From Chloroherpeton thalassium ATCC 35110 (GTDB taxonomy: Bacteria > Bacteroidota > Chlorobiia > Chlorobiales > Chloroherpetonaceae), in assembly GCF_000020525.1 (NCBI RefSeq), contig NC_011026.1, positions 3,206,001 through 3,270,000 on the forward strand: a stretch of 64,000 nucleotides of DNA. Reading direction: 5' to 3'. A program made the translations under genes and the position numbers. The notes beneath the pieces were generated by a model. It did not search any database. It was not told the origin of the DNA and saw only the letters and a program-made list of their open reading frames with translations. This document shows, piece by piece, positions 30,762 through 45,192 of the stretch; position 1 is the stretch's first letter, and each line of letters starts with the position of its first letter.

Positions 30762-32027
30762 ATGAAGTTGCCAAATAAACGCAAACATACAGTTAAGCAA
30801 CTTGATCCTGTTGTAGAGAAATCGTCATCCAAAATTCTTCTTGTAGACGATGACGACGATATCTGCAAAATTTGCCAACGCGCCCTTTCCATGCTTGGCT
30901 ACGAAGTGCTGATTGCTTCGTGCGGCGAAACGGCGTTGCAAATGTTCAAAGAACATGAACCGGAAATTATTCTGCTCGACATTTTCATGCCCGACCTCGA
31001 CGGTTTCGACGTTCTTAGAAGCATTAGAAGCCAAAGCGATTTTCCCGAGGTAATTCTCATCACCGGCTACGGCGATATGAATCTCGTTATCAGCGCCATG
31101 CGAAACGGCGCAACGGATTTTCTAACCAAGCCTTTTGACTTGGAAAACCTTCGTTCCGTTATCGATAATGCCCGAAAACGATTAGAGAAGAAAAAAGAGA
31201 ACCAATCCGCGTTGCTTGATACAACTGAGCTCGAACCGGCAGCGGCATTGTCCATCAATGCCATTGATATTCATCAAGACGTGCCGCTTCGAATTCGGAC
31301 TTTCGGAAATTTGATCATTAACCTTACCGATAAAGAAATCACTTCGAAAGATTGGCACAGCAATAAAACTGAAGCCGTTTTTAAGTTGCTGCTTATCAAC
31401 CATAAGCGCCTCGTCACCACAGATGAATTTATCGATAAGCTTTGGCCTGACGCCCGAAGAAGAAGCGGCGAGGTTATGCTCTACACGGCGATATCGTCCA
31501 TTCGATATTTGTTAGAACCGCAGCTTAAAACGGCCAGAAAATCGAAGTTCGTTTTCACGCATGAAAATGGCTATGAACTCAACTTAGGCGAACTCGGTAC
31601 GGACTATTTATACGATGCTGACCTTTTTGAGTCGTATTGCGCGAAAGCCAAAGATCTGGGCGGCGACTATGACTTATATAAAGAAGCCGTTGAACTTTAT
31701 AGTGATGATTTTCTTAAGTCTGATACATTTGAAGAATGGACTTTCTACGCTCGTGAAAGTTTGAAAGATCAATATTTAGCCGCGCTTCAGTATTTAGCCG
31801 AACACGAACGGAATCTAAAAAACTATCGTGCCGCTGCAATTTATGCACGAAAAATGGTTGAAGCGGACAACTTATCTGTAACAGGATATGAGCTGTTAAT
31901 TGAAGCTTACCTCAATGAGGAACGAATCGGTGAAGCCATGCGGATTTTTAAGCAGTGCAAAGAAGTCTTCCAAAAAGAGTTAAATATGCCAGTGCCACAG
32001 CGCCTGGTCGATTTGCTTCCAAGGTAG
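30762..32027 (+). CDS. response regulator with SARP-type DNA-binding and BTAD domains
   Basis: 421 residues. Receiver about 24-145 with acidic pocket VDDDDD, phospho-acceptor Asp73 in LLDIFMPD, ITGYGD and Lys in LTKPFD. Then a winged helix (about 175-265; IRTFGNLII, LLINHKRLVTTDEFIDKLWPD, AISSIRYLLEP) of OmpR/SARP type and a bacterial transcriptional activation domain of TPR-like helices (about 275-415). It is therefore a phosphorylation-controlled transcriptional activator. Transcribed with the degenerate kinase, so the true kinase must be encoded elsewhere, perhaps the PAS kinase at 38-45 kb (guess). Confidence 0.88.
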   Translation: MKLPNKRKHTVKQLDPVVEKSSSKILLVDDDDDICKICQRALSMLGYEVLIASCGETALQMFKEHEPEIILLDIFMPDLDGFDVLRSIRSQSDFPEVILITGYGDMNLVISAMRNGATDFLTKPFDLENLRSVIDNARKRLEKKKENQSALLDTTELEPAAALSINAIDIHQDVPLRIRTFGNLIINLTDKEITSKDWHSNKTEAVFKLLLINHKRLVTTDEFIDKLWPDARRRSGEVMLYTAISSIRYLLEPQLKTARKSKFVFTHENGYELNLGELGTDYLYDADLFESYCAKAKDLGGDYDLYKEAVELYSDDFLKSDTFEEWTFYARESLKDQYLAALQYLAEHERNLKNYRAAAIYARKMVEADNLSVTGYELLIEAYLNEERIGEAMRIFKQCKEVFQKELNMPVPQRLVDLLPR

Positions 32028-32833: not shown

Positions 32834-33757
32834 TTATTCTCCAAACACTTCCGTGTACTGCTTCTTAAAAATTCGCAAACTTTCGTTCAACGAGAAAAAG
32901 CGAATTCCCAATTCAGTTTCTGCTTTCAGTGTAATCAACCCTGACTTCATCGGACGCTCGGCCAGTTGGCTCAAATCCGCAGTTTTTATAGGTGTAATCA
33001 AATTTTTATCAAAGCCAAAGACTTCGGCCAGTCTCAGCGCAAACTCATAGCGAGATACATTATCACCGCCAACCATATTATAAACCCCATGCTTGGCTTT
33101 ATTGACCAGCATATAAATTCCGCGAGCCAAGTCATCGGCAAGCGTTGTGTTTCCAAATTGATCGTCTACAATGCGTACTTGCTTACCTGCTTTCAATTCA
33201 CCAGCAAGCCATAAGGCAAAGTTTTTTTTGCACTGCGCAGCCACACCATACACAACCATCGTTCTAATAATCGCCCAATGCTCCCCACTATTGCGAAGGA
33301 CATTTTCCGAAGCCAATTTGCTTCGCCCATAGTAGCTTAAAGGATTTGGCTGCTGGGCTTCATCATATGGGCCGTTTTTGCCATCGAAAATGTAGTCCGT
33401 TGACACATGAACGACTTGAGCCTTTACCAATCTTGCGGCGGCAGCCAAATTTTCGACTGCAATCACATTGCCTTTCCAGCAAAGATCTTTTTCTTTTTCA
33501 CAACCGTCGACGTTGGTGTATGCACCCGCATTCACAATAAAGTTGGGCTCAAAATTCCATACCAATTCTTTCACAGCCTGGCGGTCGAGCATATCGAGGG
33601 AAATAAAGCCGAAGCTTGCGGTTTGATTATAAGGAGTTGGTTGGCGAGCTGTGGCTAAAAGATCATAGGCTCTATCGGCGGCAAAACAATCCGTTAGCTT
33701 TTGCCCCAATAACCCATTTGCACCAGTTATTAGCACGCGCTTATATGACTTTGACAT
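32834..33757 (-). CDS. rfbD: dTDP-4-dehydrorhamnose reductase (RmlD-like)
   Basis: 307 residues. NAD(P)H-dependent last step of dTDP-L-rhamnose synthesis. Extended SDR fold: VLITGANGLLGQKL (Rossmann), NAGAYTNVDGCEKEKDLCW, VHVSTDYIFDG, and the catalytic Tyr and Lys in YYGRSKLASE. The remaining rml genes are not nearby, so a related role in another deoxysugar pathway, or a SDR of similar shape, remains possible. Single gene on the - strand. Confidence 0.87.
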   Translation of the reverse strand: MSKSYKRVLITGANGLLGQKLTDCFAADRAYDLLATARQPTPYNQTASFGFISLDMLDRQAVKELVWNFEPNFIVNAGAYTNVDGCEKEKDLCWKGNVIAVENLAAAARLVKAQVVHVSTDYIFDGKNGPYDEAQQPNPLSYYGRSKLASENVLRNSGEHWAIIRTMVVYGVAAQCKKNFALWLAGELKAGKQVRIVDDQFGNTTLADDLARGIYMLVNKAKHGVYNMVGGDNVSRYEFALRLAEVFGFDKNLITPIKTADLSQLAERPMKSGLITLKAETELGIRFFSLNESLRIFKKQYTEVFGE

Positions 33758-34139: not shown

Positions 34140-35684
34140 ATGAAAAAAATGATGATCTCTTCGGTAACGATTGCAACATTATTATTCGGAAATTCCTTTG
34201 ACAATCGCTCAAGTCTTGGGAGCAATCGTGTGGAAAGAACTTCTTCACCAGATGCTGTGGTTTGCGCTTATAACACCCCTTCAAATGGCGTCAGCACAAA
34301 TTTGTTGCTTCATTCTTCAAACTCATTACAAGAAAATCTTTTTGCCAGCACGTCGAACAGCACGGCAACCAACACGAAACGCAGTAGCCGAATAGAAGCG
34401 GTTGAAAACGTAGATGACGCCGACCTCATCTTAAGCTTGAGCGGCCATACGGAAAGCGTTTCCTCTATTTCATTTAGCCGCGACGGAAAATATCTTGCAA
34501 GCGGAAGCTGGGATAACACGGTTAAAGTTTGGGATGTAAACACAGGAAAAGTTTTATTCGACCTAAAAGGACACTCGGCAGGCGTTTCCGCTGTTGCTTT
34601 CAGTCCAAGCAGCCTGATGCTGGCTTCCGTCTCATTAGATAGCACGCTAAGAGTTTGGGAAATCAGAAAAGAAGCGGCTAATAGCACCAACGCGAGCAGC
34701 TCAAGCCAGCTCAGCAATCCCTCATCCAAGACGCAGTTTGCCTCGTCGAACGCAACAAATAGTTTAACCGAAGGCGTGCTGAAAGCTTATCCCGCTTATA
34801 GCATCAAAGCGCATCCAAATTGGATTAGCGCGGTTGCATTCAGCAACAATGGTCAATTTATCGCCACTGGCGGCTGGGACAATCAAGTCAAGCTGTGGGA
34901 CGCTCAAACCGGAAAATTGGTTCAAACTTTCAAAGGCCACATGTCGGCTATCCTTGACTTGAAATTTACAAACGACGGGAAAACGCTTATTAGCAGCAGC
35001 CGCGACGAATCCATCATATTTTGGAATCTTCGCAATGGTGAAATCACATATAAAATCACCGGCCATTCTGGATGGATCACCTCAATTGCGCTTAATGAGA
35101 AAAACACGCTTTTGGCCAGCGGCGGCTCAGACGAAACTGTCAGCCTTTGGGATATTGCCTCACAACCTGATAGCGCCATCGAATTGCGCCGTTTCCCTGG
35201 ACATAAAGATTACGTTCGCTCCATCGCCTTCGCTCCAGATGGGAAAATTTTAGCCAGCGGCGGCGACGACCGCACCCTAAAATTCTGGAATGTTGAAACC
35301 GGTCGCGAGATCTACGAAATTGAAGGCCATGCCAGCTGGGTTCGCTCAATTGCTTATAGCCCGAATGGAAAAATTATCGCAACAGCCGGCGATGATAAAC
35401 TAATTAAGCTTTGGAATGCTGAAAAACCAATTGAAGTGGCCGCTCAAAATGCTGAGGTTGTGAAAAAAGTTGCGGTTTCCGAAGCCAGACAGGCAAGATT
35501 GGAACAAGAAGCGCTTCTCAAAAGAAAATGCAATCGCTGCCATACATTCAAGGCTGTTGAACAGGCTTTTACACGCGAAAACTTGAGCAGCACCGTAGAG
35601 CGCATGAGAAACATGCCAAACTCAGGCATCACCAAACAAGAAGCTTATGAGATTATCAGATACTTGCGCAAAGTCGTTAAGTAA
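34140..35684 (+). CDS. secreted WD40 beta-propeller with C-terminal c-type haem site
   Basis: 514 residues. An N-terminal signal-like segment (MKKMMISSVTIATLLFG) is followed by a low-complexity Ser/Asn linker, then seven WD40 repeats (about 100-435), each with GH...V/I...F and a final WD/WN/WE: one complete propeller. After a helical stretch a CNRCH motif occurs at residues 464-468, the CXXCH signature for covalent haem c. Candidate Met ligands are 489 and 492 in ERMRNMPNS, and the end EAYEIIRYLRKVVK resembles the last helix of a class I cytochrome c. Export is consistent with periplasmic haem attachment. A small electron-transfer tail on a protein-binding propeller is unusual. Confidence 0.85.
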   Translation: MKKMMISSVTIATLLFGNSFDNRSSLGSNRVERTSSPDAVVCAYNTPSNGVSTNLLLHSSNSLQENLFASTSNSTATNTKRSSRIEAVENVDDADLILSLSGHTESVSSISFSRDGKYLASGSWDNTVKVWDVNTGKVLFDLKGHSAGVSAVAFSPSSLMLASVSLDSTLRVWEIRKEAANSTNASSSSQLSNPSSKTQFASSNATNSLTEGVLKAYPAYSIKAHPNWISAVAFSNNGQFIATGGWDNQVKLWDAQTGKLVQTFKGHMSAILDLKFTNDGKTLISSSRDESIIFWNLRNGEITYKITGHSGWITSIALNEKNTLLASGGSDETVSLWDIASQPDSAIELRRFPGHKDYVRSIAFAPDGKILASGGDDRTLKFWNVETGREIYEIEGHASWVRSIAYSPNGKIIATAGDDKLIKLWNAEKPIEVAAQNAEVVKKVAVSEARQARLEQEALLKRKCNRCHTFKAVEQAFTRENLSSTVERMRNMPNSGITKQEAYEIIRYLRKVVK

Positions 35685-35723
35685 CAAATTTTTTTGCTTT
35701 ACCATAGTGCCATGTTCTTTACA

Positions 35724-35757
35724 AAAAACCCCGCCTTTTTAAAGAGGCGGGGTTTTT
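35724..35757. terminator. bidirectional intrinsic terminator
   Basis: A 13-bp stem AAAAACCCCGCCT/AGGCGGGGTTTTT serves both the WD40-haem gene (+) and the convergent helicase gene (-). The stem itself supplies the T tract on either strand. Confidence 0.92.
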
Positions 35758-35862
35758 CATCTTAGATTGCCAAACCGTTTAACAGTTCATAAGCGTGCAA
35801 AAATTTATCCCACGCGCGTTTGTGCAAACTCGCAAATGCAAAATCGAAGCGAGCAAAGCTAT

Positions 35863-38160
35863 TTATTCAACCACCGTGAGGTTTGCGTATTTCAACACGA
35901 GTGTTTTTTCACCAGCCCCTCGGAAAAAGACCTTTATTTTCGTGTCATCTCCTGAGCCTTGCACAGCCATCACTTTTCCTGTGCCAAAAATTTTATGCTG
36001 CACTTTCATCCCAACGGCAATCGCACTTTTTTTTGCCGATGAACTTGTTAACGAAGTTTGGCGCGAAGCAGCTGGCGCAACACGCCGCGATTGTGCTCGG
36101 TCCGAAAAGTTGCTTCGGCTTGTATATTCAGAATCGTCATAGTGATAACGACTTTTCTCGGCGTCTTGCAAGCGAATTTCATCTAAAAGCTTTCCACCTT
36201 CCGTAACAACCGAACCACCATCCAGCTCTTCAATAAACCGCGAACGTTTCGCCGGAAACGACTGACCAAATTTGTAGCGACTTTTTGCAAACGAGACATA
36301 AAGTTTCTTCTCGGCACGTGTGAGCGCCACATAAAACAAGCGTCGCTCTTCTTCCAGTTCGCGCGGCTCATCAGGATTGAGCGGGAAAAGTCGCTCCTCA
36401 AGCCCCGTCACAAACACAACCGGAAACTCCAGTCCTTTGGCAGCATGAATGGTCATGAGCGTCACCTGATTGCCGTTTGCGTCCGCATTATCTTGATCTG
36501 TGGCAAGCGATGCACTTTGCAAAAACGCATTGAGCGAAGGATCTTCGGCGCTTTTGTCGCAAAATTGACGCGCAAAGTTCAGAAATTCCTGAAGATTATC
36601 GTAGCGAGCGTTGGCTTCTGCGGTGTTTTCGTTTTTGAGAATTTCAAGCAATCGTGTTTTTCGAAGCAACTCTGCAACTACTTCATAGGCCGTATGCTGC
36701 TGGGCAATTTCGCGCAAATCTTCAATGAGCATTCGAAAATCGTTTAAGGCGGAAATTAACCGATTTTGCAGATCGTAGTGCGTTGCGCGACAAATCGCCT
36801 CATAAAGCGAAAAACCTTCCTCGATGGCAATATCTTTGAGGCGCTTCAGGCTTGTTTCGCCCACGCCGCGCGCCGGAAAATTGATAATTCGCAACAGAGA
36901 TTCTTCATCACGGCTATTCAAAATGAAGCGCAGGTAGGCGACAATATCTTTGATTTCTTTTCGTTTATAAAATGAAACCCCGCCAAACACACGATACGCA
37001 ATGCCGTTGAAACGCAGCGCGTCTTCCAACGCACGCGACTGCGCGTTGGTTCGATAAAAAATTGCAAAGTCGCTGTTTTGGTTTCCGCTGGAAAGTTTTC
37101 GTTCGCGAATAGCCATAGCCACTTTTTCGGCCTCGCGCCGTTCATCGGTGGCTTCAAATAGCGTGACTGGCTCACCGGTTTCGTTGCTGGTGTAAAGCGT
37201 TTTTTCCAACTGCTCTTTGTTGTTGGAAATCACCGTATTGGCAACTTTCAAGATTGTTTTCGTGCAGCGGTAATTTTCTTCCAAACGGCAAATTGTGGCT
37301 TCCTTGTAATCATTTTGAAACCCTAAAATGTTCGCAATATCAGCGCCGCGCCAGGAGTAAATCGATTGTGCATCGTCGCCGACAACGCAAATATTGCGAT
37401 GCTGGCCGGCCAGCATTTTCGCAACAATGTACTGAGCGCGGTTTGTATCTTGATACTCATCGATCATAATGTATTGGAAGCGCTCTTGATAGTGCGCCAA
37501 AATCTCAGGATGTTCATTAAATAGCTTGATGGGTTTGATGAGCAGATCGTCGAAATCGAGCGCATTATTTTTCTGCAAACGCTCATTGTATTTATAAAAA
37601 ACTTCCGCCGTTTTTTCAGAAATAAAATCCGAGGCGTTTTGGCTCATCTGTTCCGGCGTGACGAGCCGGTTTTTGGCCATGCTAATTTTTCCTTGCACCG
37701 CATTTGGCGCCAGCACGTCTGTGGCAATTCCCAGTTCCGTGATGATTTGCTTGATTAAATTTTTGCTGTCGTCGGCATCGTAAATGGTGTAATCACTGGT
37801 AAAACCCAAGCGATCGGCATGTTGACGCAAAAGGCGCGCAAAATTTGAGTGAAACGTACCGATCCAAAGCCCACGCGTGCTGCCGGTCCCGAGAATCTCT
37901 TCGACGCGCGATCGCATTTCATTTGCCGCCTTGTTGGTAAAAGTGAGCGCCAGAATTTGATTGGGTGCGCAATTTTCTTTGTTGATGATATAAGCAATTC
38001 GAAACGTAATCACGCGAGTTTTCCCCGAACCCGCGCCCGCAATAATCATTACAGGTCCTTTGGTTGTTTCAACCGCTTTTTTTTGCTCTGTATTTAAACT
38101 TTTAAGAAGCGTTTCCAATTTAGCTAATAGTTTTTGCGTGTCTAAAATCCCGTTTATCAA
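35863..38160 (-). CDS. pcrA: ATP-dependent DNA helicase, UvrD/PcrA family
   Basis: 765 residues. 3'-5' superfamily 1A helicase for repair and replication-fork clearance. All motifs are present: GAGSGKT (I), DEYQDTN (II), VVGDDAQSIYSWRGA (III), LEENYRCT (IV), MTIHAAKGLEFPVVF (V) and LFYVALTRAEKKLYV (VI). The C-terminal Tudor-like domain (VQHKIFGTGKVMAVQG, about 715-760), which in PcrA/UvrD contacts RNA polymerase, is present. A standard single-gene unit. Confidence 0.96.
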   Translation of the reverse strand: MINGILDTQKLLAKLETLLKSLNTEQKKAVETTKGPVMIIAGAGSGKTRVITFRIAYIINKENCAPNQILALTFTNKAANEMRSRVEEILGTGSTRGLWIGTFHSNFARLLRQHADRLGFTSDYTIYDADDSKNLIKQIITELGIATDVLAPNAVQGKISMAKNRLVTPEQMSQNASDFISEKTAEVFYKYNERLQKNNALDFDDLLIKPIKLFNEHPEILAHYQERFQYIMIDEYQDTNRAQYIVAKMLAGQHRNICVVGDDAQSIYSWRGADIANILGFQNDYKEATICRLEENYRCTKTILKVANTVISNNKEQLEKTLYTSNETGEPVTLFEATDERREAEKVAMAIRERKLSSGNQNSDFAIFYRTNAQSRALEDALRFNGIAYRVFGGVSFYKRKEIKDIVAYLRFILNSRDEESLLRIINFPARGVGETSLKRLKDIAIEEGFSLYEAICRATHYDLQNRLISALNDFRMLIEDLREIAQQHTAYEVVAELLRKTRLLEILKNENTAEANARYDNLQEFLNFARQFCDKSAEDPSLNAFLQSASLATDQDNADANGNQVTLMTIHAAKGLEFPVVFVTGLEERLFPLNPDEPRELEEERRLFYVALTRAEKKLYVSFAKSRYKFGQSFPAKRSRFIEELDGGSVVTEGGKLLDEIRLQDAEKSRYHYDDSEYTSRSNFSDRAQSRRVAPAASRQTSLTSSSAKKSAIAVGMKVQHKIFGTGKVMAVQGSGDDTKIKVFFRGAGEKTLVLKYANLTVVE

Positions 38161-40242: not shown

Positions 40243-43200
40243 TTGCTGCAAGAGCAAATTACCGAGAAGGAAAAAGCAGAAAGCACCTTAAAACATAACG
40301 AAGAATTTTTTAGGCTATCGTTCTCAGAATCGCCTGTTGCAACGGCGATTATCGATCTCAACTTTAGATTGCTGAAAGTCAATCGTGCCTTTTTCAGCAT
40401 GATGGGCTGCGACGAAGTCGGCTTATCGCCATTTCGCTTCTATGATTTTCTTCATCACGAAGATCTTTCTCGCCATAGCAGCCAGCTCGAGACGCTCAGA
40501 AAATCGCCGCGCAAGCCGCTTTCATTTGATGCCCGCTATATTAGAAAAGATGGCCAAGTGATTTGGGGACATACGGTTTTTGGCTTGATTGAAGATAATC
40601 ATAAAAATCCGCTCTACTACCTTGCACAAATTCAGGATATCTCTGAACGCAAAGCATATCAGGATGTCCTAAACAAGAAAAACCGCCTGCTGCGCAGCAT
40701 TGCCGACGGCACAAAATATTTACTTACCATCACCAGGCCGGAAGATGCTGTCCCAAAATTCTTAGAAAACATTGGCCAAGCGCTCGATGTCGATAGGATT
40801 TATTTGATGCAAGAAAAGCTCAACGCGTCCACCCAAAATATTCGCCTAACGCTTCGGTATGAATGGTCAAGACCTGGCGTGCCATCACAGAGTGAGCTGG
40901 TGCAATCGGGAACGGTGGTTGCCACAGAAAGTGCCAAAGTTTTCAGCAAGGAGCACTTTAACTGGGATGGACTTGTGCACGGCGAGCCCGTTGCAAAACT
41001 GACCAAAGATTTTCCGGCAAAACAGCAGCATTTTTTTGAACACTTGGGAATCAAATCCACGCTCTTGGTTCCAATTATGGCTGAAGGTGGATTCTGGGGA
41101 ATTCTCGGTTTTGACGAATGCAAGTACGAGCGCGTTTGGTCGCCGGATGAAATATCGATTTTGATTGCTGCCGCCAGCAACATCGGAAGCGCATTTTCTC
41201 GTGCCACAACCCTTAAAGCGCTTCAGGCAAGCGAGATTCGCTATCGCACGCTGGCCGCTAATTTTCCAAACGGCGCATTAGCCCTTTTCAACGAAGAGTT
41301 GCTTCCCGTCGTTATCAGCGGCGATGGATTTTTGGGAGATAAAAACAAGCAAAGCGAGCTTGTTGGCAAACCGCTGAGCGATATATGGCCACCCAAAATC
41401 GCACATGAATTTGAAAAGGCACTGACAAAAGCCTTTAGCGGCAAAAAAAATTCGTTTGAACTTCGCCATCAGGAAAAAGACTGGCAAATTTGGGCTGTTC
41501 CAAACACAGAAAAAGATGAGCATATCGGAACCGTTACGGCCATTTGCATCGATATCACGGAGCAAAAAAATGCGCACCGCCTTCTTTTGGAATCTGAGCG
41601 CGACTATCGCGGATTTTTCCAAAACGTTCACGATGCGATTTTGATATGCAATATTTATGATGAAATCTTAGAGGTCAATCATCGTGCGAGCGAAATTTAC
41701 GGCTATGCGGAAAGCGAGCTGATTGGCCAAAGCATGGACATTCTTTGCAAATACCCCGCTCGTGGACGCATCCATTTGAACGATACGCGCCGGCATGGAC
41801 AATCCGTCGGATTTGAAGCGATTCATATCAAGAAAGATGGCTTTGAGTTGTACATGGAAATCAATTCCAAAACGGCAACTTATAAAGGGCAAACCGTCAC
41901 GATCAGCATTTGCCGAGATATCAACGATAAAAAAATTGCTGAGATCGCGTTGCGCGATAGCGAACGCCGAAGCCGACGCATTATAGACACCACCGCCGAA
42001 GGCATTTGGATTATCAATAGCCATCACCGCACCTGTTTCGTGAATCATCAAACAACCGAAATGCTCGGCTACAGCGAAGATGAAATGCTCGGCAAAGCCA
42101 TTGAGACCTTCCTTAGCGATGACCAAAACATTCAGGGCTTGTTTCTTATGCCGCAAAGCAAAAAACAAAAAATTGTTTGCGACATTCAATTTGTGAAAAA
42201 ATCTGGCGAGCTGCTTTGGGCGATGGTTTCAGCATCGAGAATGGCAAGCGAGAACAGCAAAGAGGGCAACTTGCTGCTGATGTTTAGCGACATTACCGAG
42301 CGAAAAATCATCGAACAGGCCTTGCACAAAAGCGAGCGAAACTACAAAACCTTAGCAGAAAATCTTCCTCGCGGTGCGGCTTTGATCATCGATAAAGACT
42401 TCAATTGTATTCTGGCTGCCGGAAATGCGTTTCATCGTCAAGGCAACCTTCGCCCAAACACCGAAGGAAAACCTACGGATAATGTAAAACCCACCGACTT
42501 AGCAGAACGCCTAAAAGATCATTACAGCTTAGCGTTTACAGGCGAAAAAATAGATTTCCAATTGGAATATTTAGAGCGCTGGTGGCAAGTGTATGTTGTC
42601 CCTAATCAGGATAATGACGACAACTTGATTGAAACCATCACGCTGATTGCCTACGACATTACCCAGCATAAAAAACAAGAAGCGGCGCTTATTGAAAGTG
42701 AATCGCGATTCCGAGATATTTTCAATACGATGCCATTGGGAATGGTTCTTGCAGACAACAACGGGGATATTCGCTTGGTGAATCCCGCGTTCGAAAAGAT
42801 GCTGGGCTACTCGGATGCTGAACTTTATAAGAAAAACGTGCGCGACCTCACTCACGAGGACGATATCGAACGGTCAATTTTGAAGCATAGAAATATCCTT
42901 CTTTTAAAAAAACAGGGCTATCAACTTGAAAAGCGATATATCCGAAAAGATGGAAAATCTATTTTAGCCAAACTCACAGCAAAAGCGCTATGCAACGATA
43001 AAGACCGTTCCTTTTTTGCGCTTGGCATTGTGGAAGACATCACCGAGGCCAAAGTCACACAGGAGAGACTCCGAGAAACGCAAGAGCAATATTTTACTTT
43101 AGTGAAAAACTTCCCCGAAGGCCTGGTGATGGTTATCGATGAAGATTATCGTTGCCTGCTGGCCAGCGGAGAAGCCATAAAACTTGGAACGCGCCTGATT

Positions 43201-45192
43201 GGACGCCATCCTCAAGACTATTGCGATGCGGAGTCGTTACAAATTCTTTCCCAAAAATACGCGCAGGCATTTACTGGAGAAAAGCAATCTTTTGAACTCG
43301 AATTTTTAAATGGCTACTGGATGACCCACGTCGTGCCAAATACTTGGGATAAAAATGGCACGGTGAAAACCGTTTCTGTCATCTGCATTGATATTACCAA
43401 GCGGAAAAAAATTGAAGATGCGCTTTCGCGTAGTCGCGAACGCTACCGCGCGATTGTCAATGAAATGGAAGCATTCGTTTGTCGATGCACTCCAGATGGC
43501 AACATCGCATTTATTAATGACACTTATTGTAAGGTTCTCTCAAAAAGCGGCCAGGAACTTTTGGGGATAAATTTTTCAGAAATTATTTCCGTAGAAGACC
43601 AACCTCGATTTTTGACTTCATTCAAAAACATCACGGCGCAGCATCCTGTCCATTCTTCAGAATACCGTGTTTTGGTCAATCAAGAGGTGCACTGGCACAA
43701 ATATTCAGCAACGGGCATTTTTAAAGACGATGGCTTGGAAGAAGTGCAAATTATTGGCCACGACATAACAGAAAGAAAAAACATAGAAATTAGGCTTCAA
43801 GCAAGCGAAGAACATTTTCGTTTCCTTGCCGAACACGCCAGCGATTTGATTATTCACCTTTCTGTACAACATGAATATCAGGCAAAGGTGACTTACATTA
43901 GCACGTCCTGCCAAAATATTTTGGGTTACACGCGCGAGGAGCTTATGTCGTTTCAGCTTAGTGATATGATTCACCCTGAAGATCTTCCGCTATTCTACAA
44001 AGCCTATGCGAAGCTCGTTCAACAGCCCAATTTACCGGCTCCGATTTTATATCGCCATAAGCATCGCTCTGGAAAATATATTTGGCTTGAAACGCTCATC
44101 AAGCCCATTTGTGATGAAGACGGCAAAATTTTGAGCGCGGTCATGGCATCGCGCAATGTTACGGAGCGCAAACGAGCGGAAATGGCGCTTCAAGAGAGCG
44201 AAGAACGCTATCGGCAAGTGGTCGAAAATTCACCCAATCCGATTTTTTCTGCTGACCGCGCAGGAGTTCTTCACACATGGAACATTGCTTGCGAACAAAG
44301 CTTTGAATGTCCGCAAATAGAAATGCTTGGTAAAAATTGGCACGCGCTTTTAGCGCATCCTGAAAATGCTGCGACTTTATCAAAAACTGTGGACGCTATT
44401 TTTCGGGGCGAGCGCGAAAGTGCAGAACTCAGCGTTTCGTATCAGAATAAGCGCGGGGAGGAACTTTACATGGTTTGCCGGCTTTATCCGCTAAAGAATT
44501 TATTTGGCGAAATTGCATTTTGTGTTTTTGCCAACATGGACATTTCCGAGCGATTCAAATACGAACAAAAACTAAAAGCTTCGCTCGGAGAACGAGACAC
44601 ACTGTTAAAAGAAGTTCATCATCGGGTTAAAAACAACTTGCAGGTCATTTCCAGTTTGCTTCACCTGCAAAAATCAAAACTGCAAGACCCGCAGGCCATC
44701 CAAATCTTTATCGACAGCCAAAATCGCATTCATTCGATGGCGCTGATTCATCAGCATTTATATCAATCCGACGATCTCAACAACGTGGATTTTGCGGCAT
44801 ACATTGATCGCTTATTGATTCAGCTTGAAATCACTTATGGCAATCCAGGCGTTGAATTCAAAACGAACGTTCAAAACATCAAGCTAAGCTTAGACTATGC
44901 GATTCCTTGCGGCCTTTTAATTAACGAGATTATTGCCAATTCGCTGAAACACGCCTTTCAAGCCATTGAACAAAAGGGCGAAATTTATGTAGAAATGCTT
45001 TACCTTGAAGCCGAAAAAGCCCTGAAAATTTGCATTACGGATAATGGCTCAGGCTTTAACGAGAATATCACTTTTGAAAATGCACAGACGCTTGGCTTCA
45101 AGTTGATTCGCTCGTTTGTCACCCAGCTCAATGGCACTGTAACAGTTTGTGGTGAAAATGGCACACGATTCGACATCACGCTGCCATGCTAA
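40243..45192 (+). CDS. C-terminal half of giant PAS sensor kinase (ten PAS, GAF, HisKA_2 kinase)
   Basis: 1,649 residues from a TTG that is only nominal: the frame opens inside the coiled linker of the preceding ORF. Domains: PAS (about 15-135), GAF (about 145-320), then nine more PAS (about 325-1435), most with a DITERK-type PAC end, three of them a special repeated type. The end is HisKA_2 with intact phospho-acceptor in EVHHRVKNNLQVISSLL (about 1465) and an ATPase domain with NEIIANSLKHAF, DNGSGF and LGFKLIRSF. It is soluble, with no membrane helix, so its signals must be intracellular, such as redox, light, gas or flavin/haem ligands. Its likely partner is the receiver of the next gene. 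Confidence 0.88.
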   Translation: MLQEQITEKEKAESTLKHNEEFFRLSFSESPVATAIIDLNFRLLKVNRAFFSMMGCDEVGLSPFRFYDFLHHEDLSRHSSQLETLRKSPRKPLSFDARYIRKDGQVIWGHTVFGLIEDNHKNPLYYLAQIQDISERKAYQDVLNKKNRLLRSIADGTKYLLTITRPEDAVPKFLENIGQALDVDRIYLMQEKLNASTQNIRLTLRYEWSRPGVPSQSELVQSGTVVATESAKVFSKEHFNWDGLVHGEPVAKLTKDFPAKQQHFFEHLGIKSTLLVPIMAEGGFWGILGFDECKYERVWSPDEISILIAAASNIGSAFSRATTLKALQASEIRYRTLAANFPNGALALFNEELLPVVISGDGFLGDKNKQSELVGKPLSDIWPPKIAHEFEKALTKAFSGKKNSFELRHQEKDWQIWAVPNTEKDEHIGTVTAICIDITEQKNAHRLLLESERDYRGFFQNVHDAILICNIYDEILEVNHRASEIYGYAESELIGQSMDILCKYPARGRIHLNDTRRHGQSVGFEAIHIKKDGFELYMEINSKTATYKGQTVTISICRDINDKKIAEIALRDSERRSRRIIDTTAEGIWIINSHHRTCFVNHQTTEMLGYSEDEMLGKAIETFLSDDQNIQGLFLMPQSKKQKIVCDIQFVKKSGELLWAMVSASRMASENSKEGNLLLMFSDITERKIIEQALHKSERNYKTLAENLPRGAALIIDKDFNCILAAGNAFHRQGNLRPNTEGKPTDNVKPTDLAERLKDHYSLAFTGEKIDFQLEYLERWWQVYVVPNQDNDDNLIETITLIAYDITQHKKQEAALIESESRFRDIFNTMPLGMVLADNNGDIRLVNPAFEKMLGYSDAELYKKNVRDLTHEDDIERSILKHRNILLLKKQGYQLEKRYIRKDGKSILAKLTAKALCNDKDRSFFALGIVEDITEAKVTQERLRETQEQYFTLVKNFPEGLVMVIDEDYRCLLASGEAIKLGTRLIGRHPQDYCDAESLQILSQKYAQAFTGEKQSFELEFLNGYWMTHVVPNTWDKNGTVKTVSVICIDITKRKKIEDALSRSRERYRAIVNEMEAFVCRCTPDGNIAFINDTYCKVLSKSGQELLGINFSEIISVEDQPRFLTSFKNITAQHPVHSSEYRVLVNQEVHWHKYSATGIFKDDGLEEVQIIGHDITERKNIEIRLQASEEHFRFLAEHASDLIIHLSVQHEYQAKVTYISTSCQNILGYTREELMSFQLSDMIHPEDLPLFYKAYAKLVQQPNLPAPILYRHKHRSGKYIWLETLIKPICDEDGKILSAVMASRNVTERKRAEMALQESEERYRQVVENSPNPIFSADRAGVLHTWNIACEQSFECPQIEMLGKNWHALLAHPENAATLSKTVDAIFRGERESAELSVSYQNKRGEELYMVCRLYPLKNLFGEIAFCVFANMDISERFKYEQKLKASLGERDTLLKEVHHRVKNNLQVISSLLHLQKSKLQDPQAIQIFIDSQNRIHSMALIHQHLYQSDDLNNVDFAAYIDRLLIQLEITYGNPGVEFKTNVQNIKLSLDYAIPCGLLINEIIANSLKHAFQAIEQKGEIYVEMLYLEAEKALKICITDNGSGFNENITFENAQTLGFKLIRSFVTQLNGTVTVCGENGTRFDITLPC

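Follow-up and report, generated by a model that had tools for sequence, protein, structure and literature searches.

In quinohaemoprotein alcohol dehydrogenases and in cytochrome cd1, a single exported polypeptide contains both a beta-propeller and a haem c domain; the propellers of these two enzyme groups are eight-bladed and hold catalytic PQQ or haem d1. In green sulfur bacteria, PscC (i.e., cytochrome c-z/c551) is the electron donor to P840. Its N terminus forms three transmembrane helices, and its haem domain is mobile and lies close to P840 on the periplasmic side (PMC9529944). WD40 repeats are also combined with a c-type haem domain in one chain in PSCyt proteins of Planctomycetes and Verrucomicrobia; their haem domains belong to the families PSCyt1-3 rather than to PscC, they are found in the PVC phyla and not in Chlorobi, and most of the PSCyt-WD40 proteins bear other planctomycete-specific domains (PMC5615132).

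We analyzed a 64,000-nucleotide stretch of the Chloroherpeton thalassium ATCC 35110 genome (hereafter, the window; positions 3,206,001 to 3,270,000 of NC_011026.1), which lies on a single contig of 3,293,456 bases. A 514-aa open reading frame (ORF) with an ATG start (window positions 34140 to 35684, plus strand) was found to encode a WD40 propeller followed by a PscC-type haem c domain, as identified by matches to Pfam WD40 and PF10643. The full fusion is present in both Chloroherpetonaceae genomes compared (53% identity), and the second copy is referred to here as the ortholog. This architecture is real and well supported, whereas the function is one that we infer. It represents two known modules in a new combination, and a literature search for a WD40-PscC-type fusion protein found no paper.

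The fusion differs from the quinohaemoprotein alcohol dehydrogenases and cytochrome cd1 in having a seven-bladed canonical WD40 propeller, whose best Pfam matches included no cofactor family. With PscC/c-z (PF10643; 3A9F), it shares the haem sequence, CN[KR]CHT, an aligned Met, a P-x-S-G turn, and a C-terminal helix, and the predicted folds of the haem domains are weakly alike. However, it has no N-terminal three-helix anchor, and its haem domain is placed behind the propeller. Nor does it match PF10643 over the full length: in both fusions, the match spans only positions 154 to 213 of the 216 profile positions (i.e., the haem part). Because of this partial match and because a genuine PscC, with a second C-terminal haem domain, is encoded elsewhere in this genome (C1:2218057-2219022), the fusion itself is not a PscC. 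The likeness to planctomycete-type proteins proposed in the initial annotation extends to the architecture only, since the haem domain is of the PscC type and not PSCyt; a Pfam scan of the C-terminal domain, read up to an E value of 10, gave no PSCyt family.

Propeller and N-terminal region

The WD40 family (PF00400) matched seven stretches of the protein (E value, 1.3e-82). In an AlphaFold2 model, run with two aligned sequences only, residues 96 to 426 (34425 to 35417) form 28 strands (i.e., 7 x 4), mostly with pLDDT values of >90, and a Foldseek search with this region retrieved seven-bladed WD40 proteins. The seven Pfam stretches and 28 predicted strands bear out the full seven-repeat propeller of the initial annotation, and the propeller is closed. 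The model places a disordered S/N-rich insert (residues 181 to 210) between blades 2 and 3. The top-face residues were picked by hotspot rules for WD40 proteins. The aromatic top-face positions (i.e., W124, W228, W246, W312, Y358, and W400) are identical in the ortholog, and the excess conservation of the top face between the fusion and the ortholog is weak (Fisher p, 0.06).

The N terminus consists of MKK and a hydrophobic stretch (mean Kyte-Doolittle value, 2.0 over 12 residues), the peak hydropathy of which ranks 10th among the 33 window ORFs of at least 200 aa. Only 22 of the 92 N-terminal residues are identical in the ortholog, in which MKK and the hydrophobic core (2.4) are kept. On the basis of hydropathy and this common pattern, residues 1 to about 17 (MKKMMISSVTIATLLFG; 34140 to 34190) are a putative signal sequence, moderately hydrophobic and weak but plausible. 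Residues 1 to 92 are disordered in the model (pLDDT, <50); beyond the putative signal sequence, they form an S/N/T-rich stretch that is poorly conserved in the ortholog (residues 18 to 92; 34191 to 34415). CcmF/CcmC/CcsA-type genes, of the kind used in haem c maturation, are present in the genome, and no ResB was detected in the genome search. We regard export and haem loading as likely predictions, with export as the weakest element.

C-terminal haem domain

A helical linker in the AlphaFold2 model (residues 428 to 455; 35421 to 35504) connects the propeller to the haem domain (residues 456 to 514; 35505 to 35681), which is modeled with a helical pattern at low confidence (mean pLDDT, 66). 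The attachment motif CNRCH (residues 464 to 468; 35529 to 35543) is conserved in the ortholog. The C-terminal 85 aa scored 28.8 bits against PF10643 (cutoff, 27.1 bits; ortholog, 29.8 bits). The C-terminal haem c motif that had been noted earlier is therefore upheld by the motif itself, by a profile match above the cutoff, and by helices in the last 60 residues. The crystallized c-z domain (3A9F) was both the best sequence match in the PDB (E value, 0.0017) and the top Foldseek match, the latter a weak fold match of low confidence (probability, 0.72; E value, 0.39). Alignment of the haem domain with Chlorobiaceae PscC by hhalign gave a probability of 98.8%. A hidden Markov model (HMM) of 41 Chlorobiaceae PscC haem domains scored 48.9 and 47.0 bits against the two fusions; since the top score among 10,000 shuffled sequences with CNRCHT held constant was 25.7 bits, this match is not due to chance. 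By sequence, then, the C-terminal domain is a haem domain of the PscC (cytochrome c-z/c551) type. It is strongly basic in both fusions (pI, 10.0 and 10.9). In a haem-domain tree, the two fusions were joined with support of 100/99 and were tentatively grouped, on a long branch, with Chlorobiaceae PscC and not with a diheme protein described below (88/80).

Across 10 aligned PscC-type domains, no variation is seen at either Cys, at the His and Thr of the motif, or at Met489, Pro493, and Ser495. The initial annotation had named Met489 and Met492 together. The former (35604 to 35606) is retained in 10 of the 10 domains, while the latter is variable and is replaced by Tyr in the only ortholog. Since Met489 is invariant and Met492 is not, Met489 is likely the axial haem ligand; no statement on the axial ligands of c-z was found in the literature searched. 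The region between CxxCH and the Met is 5 to 6 residues shorter than in most PscC proteins, and the redox properties and docking could therefore differ from those of PscC. The haem domain is conserved as much as the propeller (37 of 59 residues identical in the ortholog).

Small cytochrome c modules weakly similar to this domain occur in the haem-binding region of QhpA (PF09098, TIGR03908) and in SorB (NF052246). Identity with the QhpA alpha subunit was rejected at 20.2 bits for PF09098 (cutoff, 25.2 bits) and 24.5 bits for TIGR03908 (cutoff, 274.35 bits), as was identity with SorB at 20.5 bits (cutoff, 93 bits); no other domains or subunits of the QhpA or SorB systems were seen.

Genomic context and possible function

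The fusion gene has no neighbor on the same strand: it is flanked by an rfbD-like gene (32834 to 33757, minus strand) and a uvrD-like gene (35863 to 38160, minus strand), both named by eye from the ORF list. On its 3' side (35720 to 35760), an inverted repeat of high GC content and the T-run after it resemble an intrinsic terminator, which was missed by the terminator scan probably because its loop is long. A REC-BTAD response regulator is encoded nearby (30762 to 32027, plus strand) and is 47% identical to one that, in the second genome, precedes the fusion by 137 bp. Because regulators of this family also occur in the sister family, where the fusion is missing, and because the second genome has another, equally similar copy, the link is suggestive only, with this protein as a possible regulator of the fusion. 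The gene directly downstream in the second genome, oriented tail to tail with the fusion, is pscD; in this genome, it is far away (C1:1482337), and a conserved fusion-pscD linkage was rejected. No conserved gene order that would name a partner was found in the two Chloroherpetonaceae genomes. Further along the window (40243 to 45192), a 1,649-aa protein has many PAS-like segments and a histidine-kinase-like C terminus, as judged by eye.

The best reading of the fusion is a propeller protein that would dock on a partner and carry an electron. It appears to join the electron-carrying end of a reaction-center cytochrome to a protein-docking propeller, and we consider it somewhat probable that the protein acts as an exported, soluble, periplasmic monohaem carrier. 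A PscC-type haem domain freed of the three-helix membrane anchor would sit at the end of the closed seven-bladed propeller. The propeller would dock on a periplasmic partner, probably via its top face, and the haem domain, on its Lys-rich helical linker, would shuttle electrons between this partner and a second redox protein, either of the c type or in the membrane. The analogy is with PscC, whose haem domain passes electrons between menaquinol oxidoreductase and P840. His468/Met489 ligation, docking, electron transfer, and the tie to the reaction center are steps that we infer from the two modules. As for the electron transfer pathways suggested by the initial annotation, the photosynthetic one gains support from the homology of the haem domain with that of PscC of the P840 reaction center, while no evidence was found for a role in sulfur metabolism. 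It is conceivable, though rather unlikely, that Chloroherpetonaceae cut the haem domain from its anchor and turned it into a soluble carrier, guided by the propeller, that delivers electrons to P840 or takes them from the same menaquinol oxidoreductase as PscC, in a second periplasmic branch of type I photosynthetic electron transfer.

The main rival to the electron-carrier reading is a redox or ligand sensor-scaffold, in which the propeller would organize a periplasmic complex and the haem would report to a signaling chain on the redox state, on electron flow driven by light, or on O2 or NO, net electron transfer not being its task. WD40 propellers are classical scaffolds, and a REC-BTAD regulator is encoded near the fusion in both genomes. 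We nevertheless give this role a low probability: the electron-carrier pattern of PscC is kept, including the Met that would render the iron six-coordinate and therefore poor for gas sensing, and the regulator is neither confined to genomes with the fusion nor unique in the second one. The PscC-type haem domain, together with the position of pscD in the second genome, would also fit a soluble donor that is specific to the P840 reaction center and parallel to PscC. Such specificity is doubtful given that the genome has its own PscC with an extra haem, that pscD is not adjacent here, and that the other phototrophs of the order do without such a fusion.

We regard as very unlikely a protein that is not a functional cytochrome at all, whether because it stays unexported or because its CxxCH is unloaded, with the C terminus serving only as a tail, folded or metal binding, of a scaffold made of WD40 repeats. 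The weak signal sequence, the undetected ResB, and the deletion within the haem domain point in that direction, but two genera whose proteins are only 53% identical overall both keep CNRCHT and Met489, CcmF/CcmC/CcsA-type genes are present, and unstructured segments rich in S and N are in keeping with export. Returning to the soluble docking carrier, a PscC-type domain on such a propeller would imply that this electron transfer module is reusable. The fusion would also offer a natural soluble version, the partner choice of which could be compared with that of the membrane-tethered PscC.

Distribution and other PscC-type proteins

The initial annotation had suggested a search for the same architecture in Chlorobi. 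It was recovered in the second Chloroherpetonaceae genome and in none of the other 96 Chlorobiales genomes scanned. When 394 Bacteroidota genomes were searched with a profile, matches outside Chlorobiales appeared only at E values of 1e-4 or worse; none of the seven that were read among the best of these was a WD40 fusion, and several were membrane proteins with multiple passes and a cytochrome c at the C terminus. A scan of 84,980 species with two very specific peptide patterns returned the known ortholog only, and more distant fusions may exist in other phyla. The best relatives of the propeller in Chlorobiaceae are mostly WD40 proteins of ~320 to 370 aa that start with MGFLSK(I/F/L)FGKK; the only CxxCH found in them is the CAACH of L044, which lies in an extended reading frame.

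The lineage appears to have an expanded set of PscC-type haem domains, found in the fusion, in a diheme protein, and in a PscC that bears a second haem. The PscC proteins of both Chloroherpetonaceae genomes (L005:1084-2067 and L036:1090-2103) have an extra C-terminal class I haem domain that is missing from the Chlorobiaceae PscC proteins examined. The diheme protein (211 aa; L006:1417-2049, minus strand; C1:3170506-3170880 in this genome) looks exported and consists of two tandem PscC-type haem domains, the first of which contains CDEGCH (i.e., CxxxCH rather than CxxCH spacing); the second Chloroherpetonaceae genome showed no evident counterpart. A further Chlorobiales family (f3; L119-L125) contains PscC-like proteins of ~310 to 390 aa with CxxCHS haem domains that score below the PF10643 cutoff, and these represent a divergent form.
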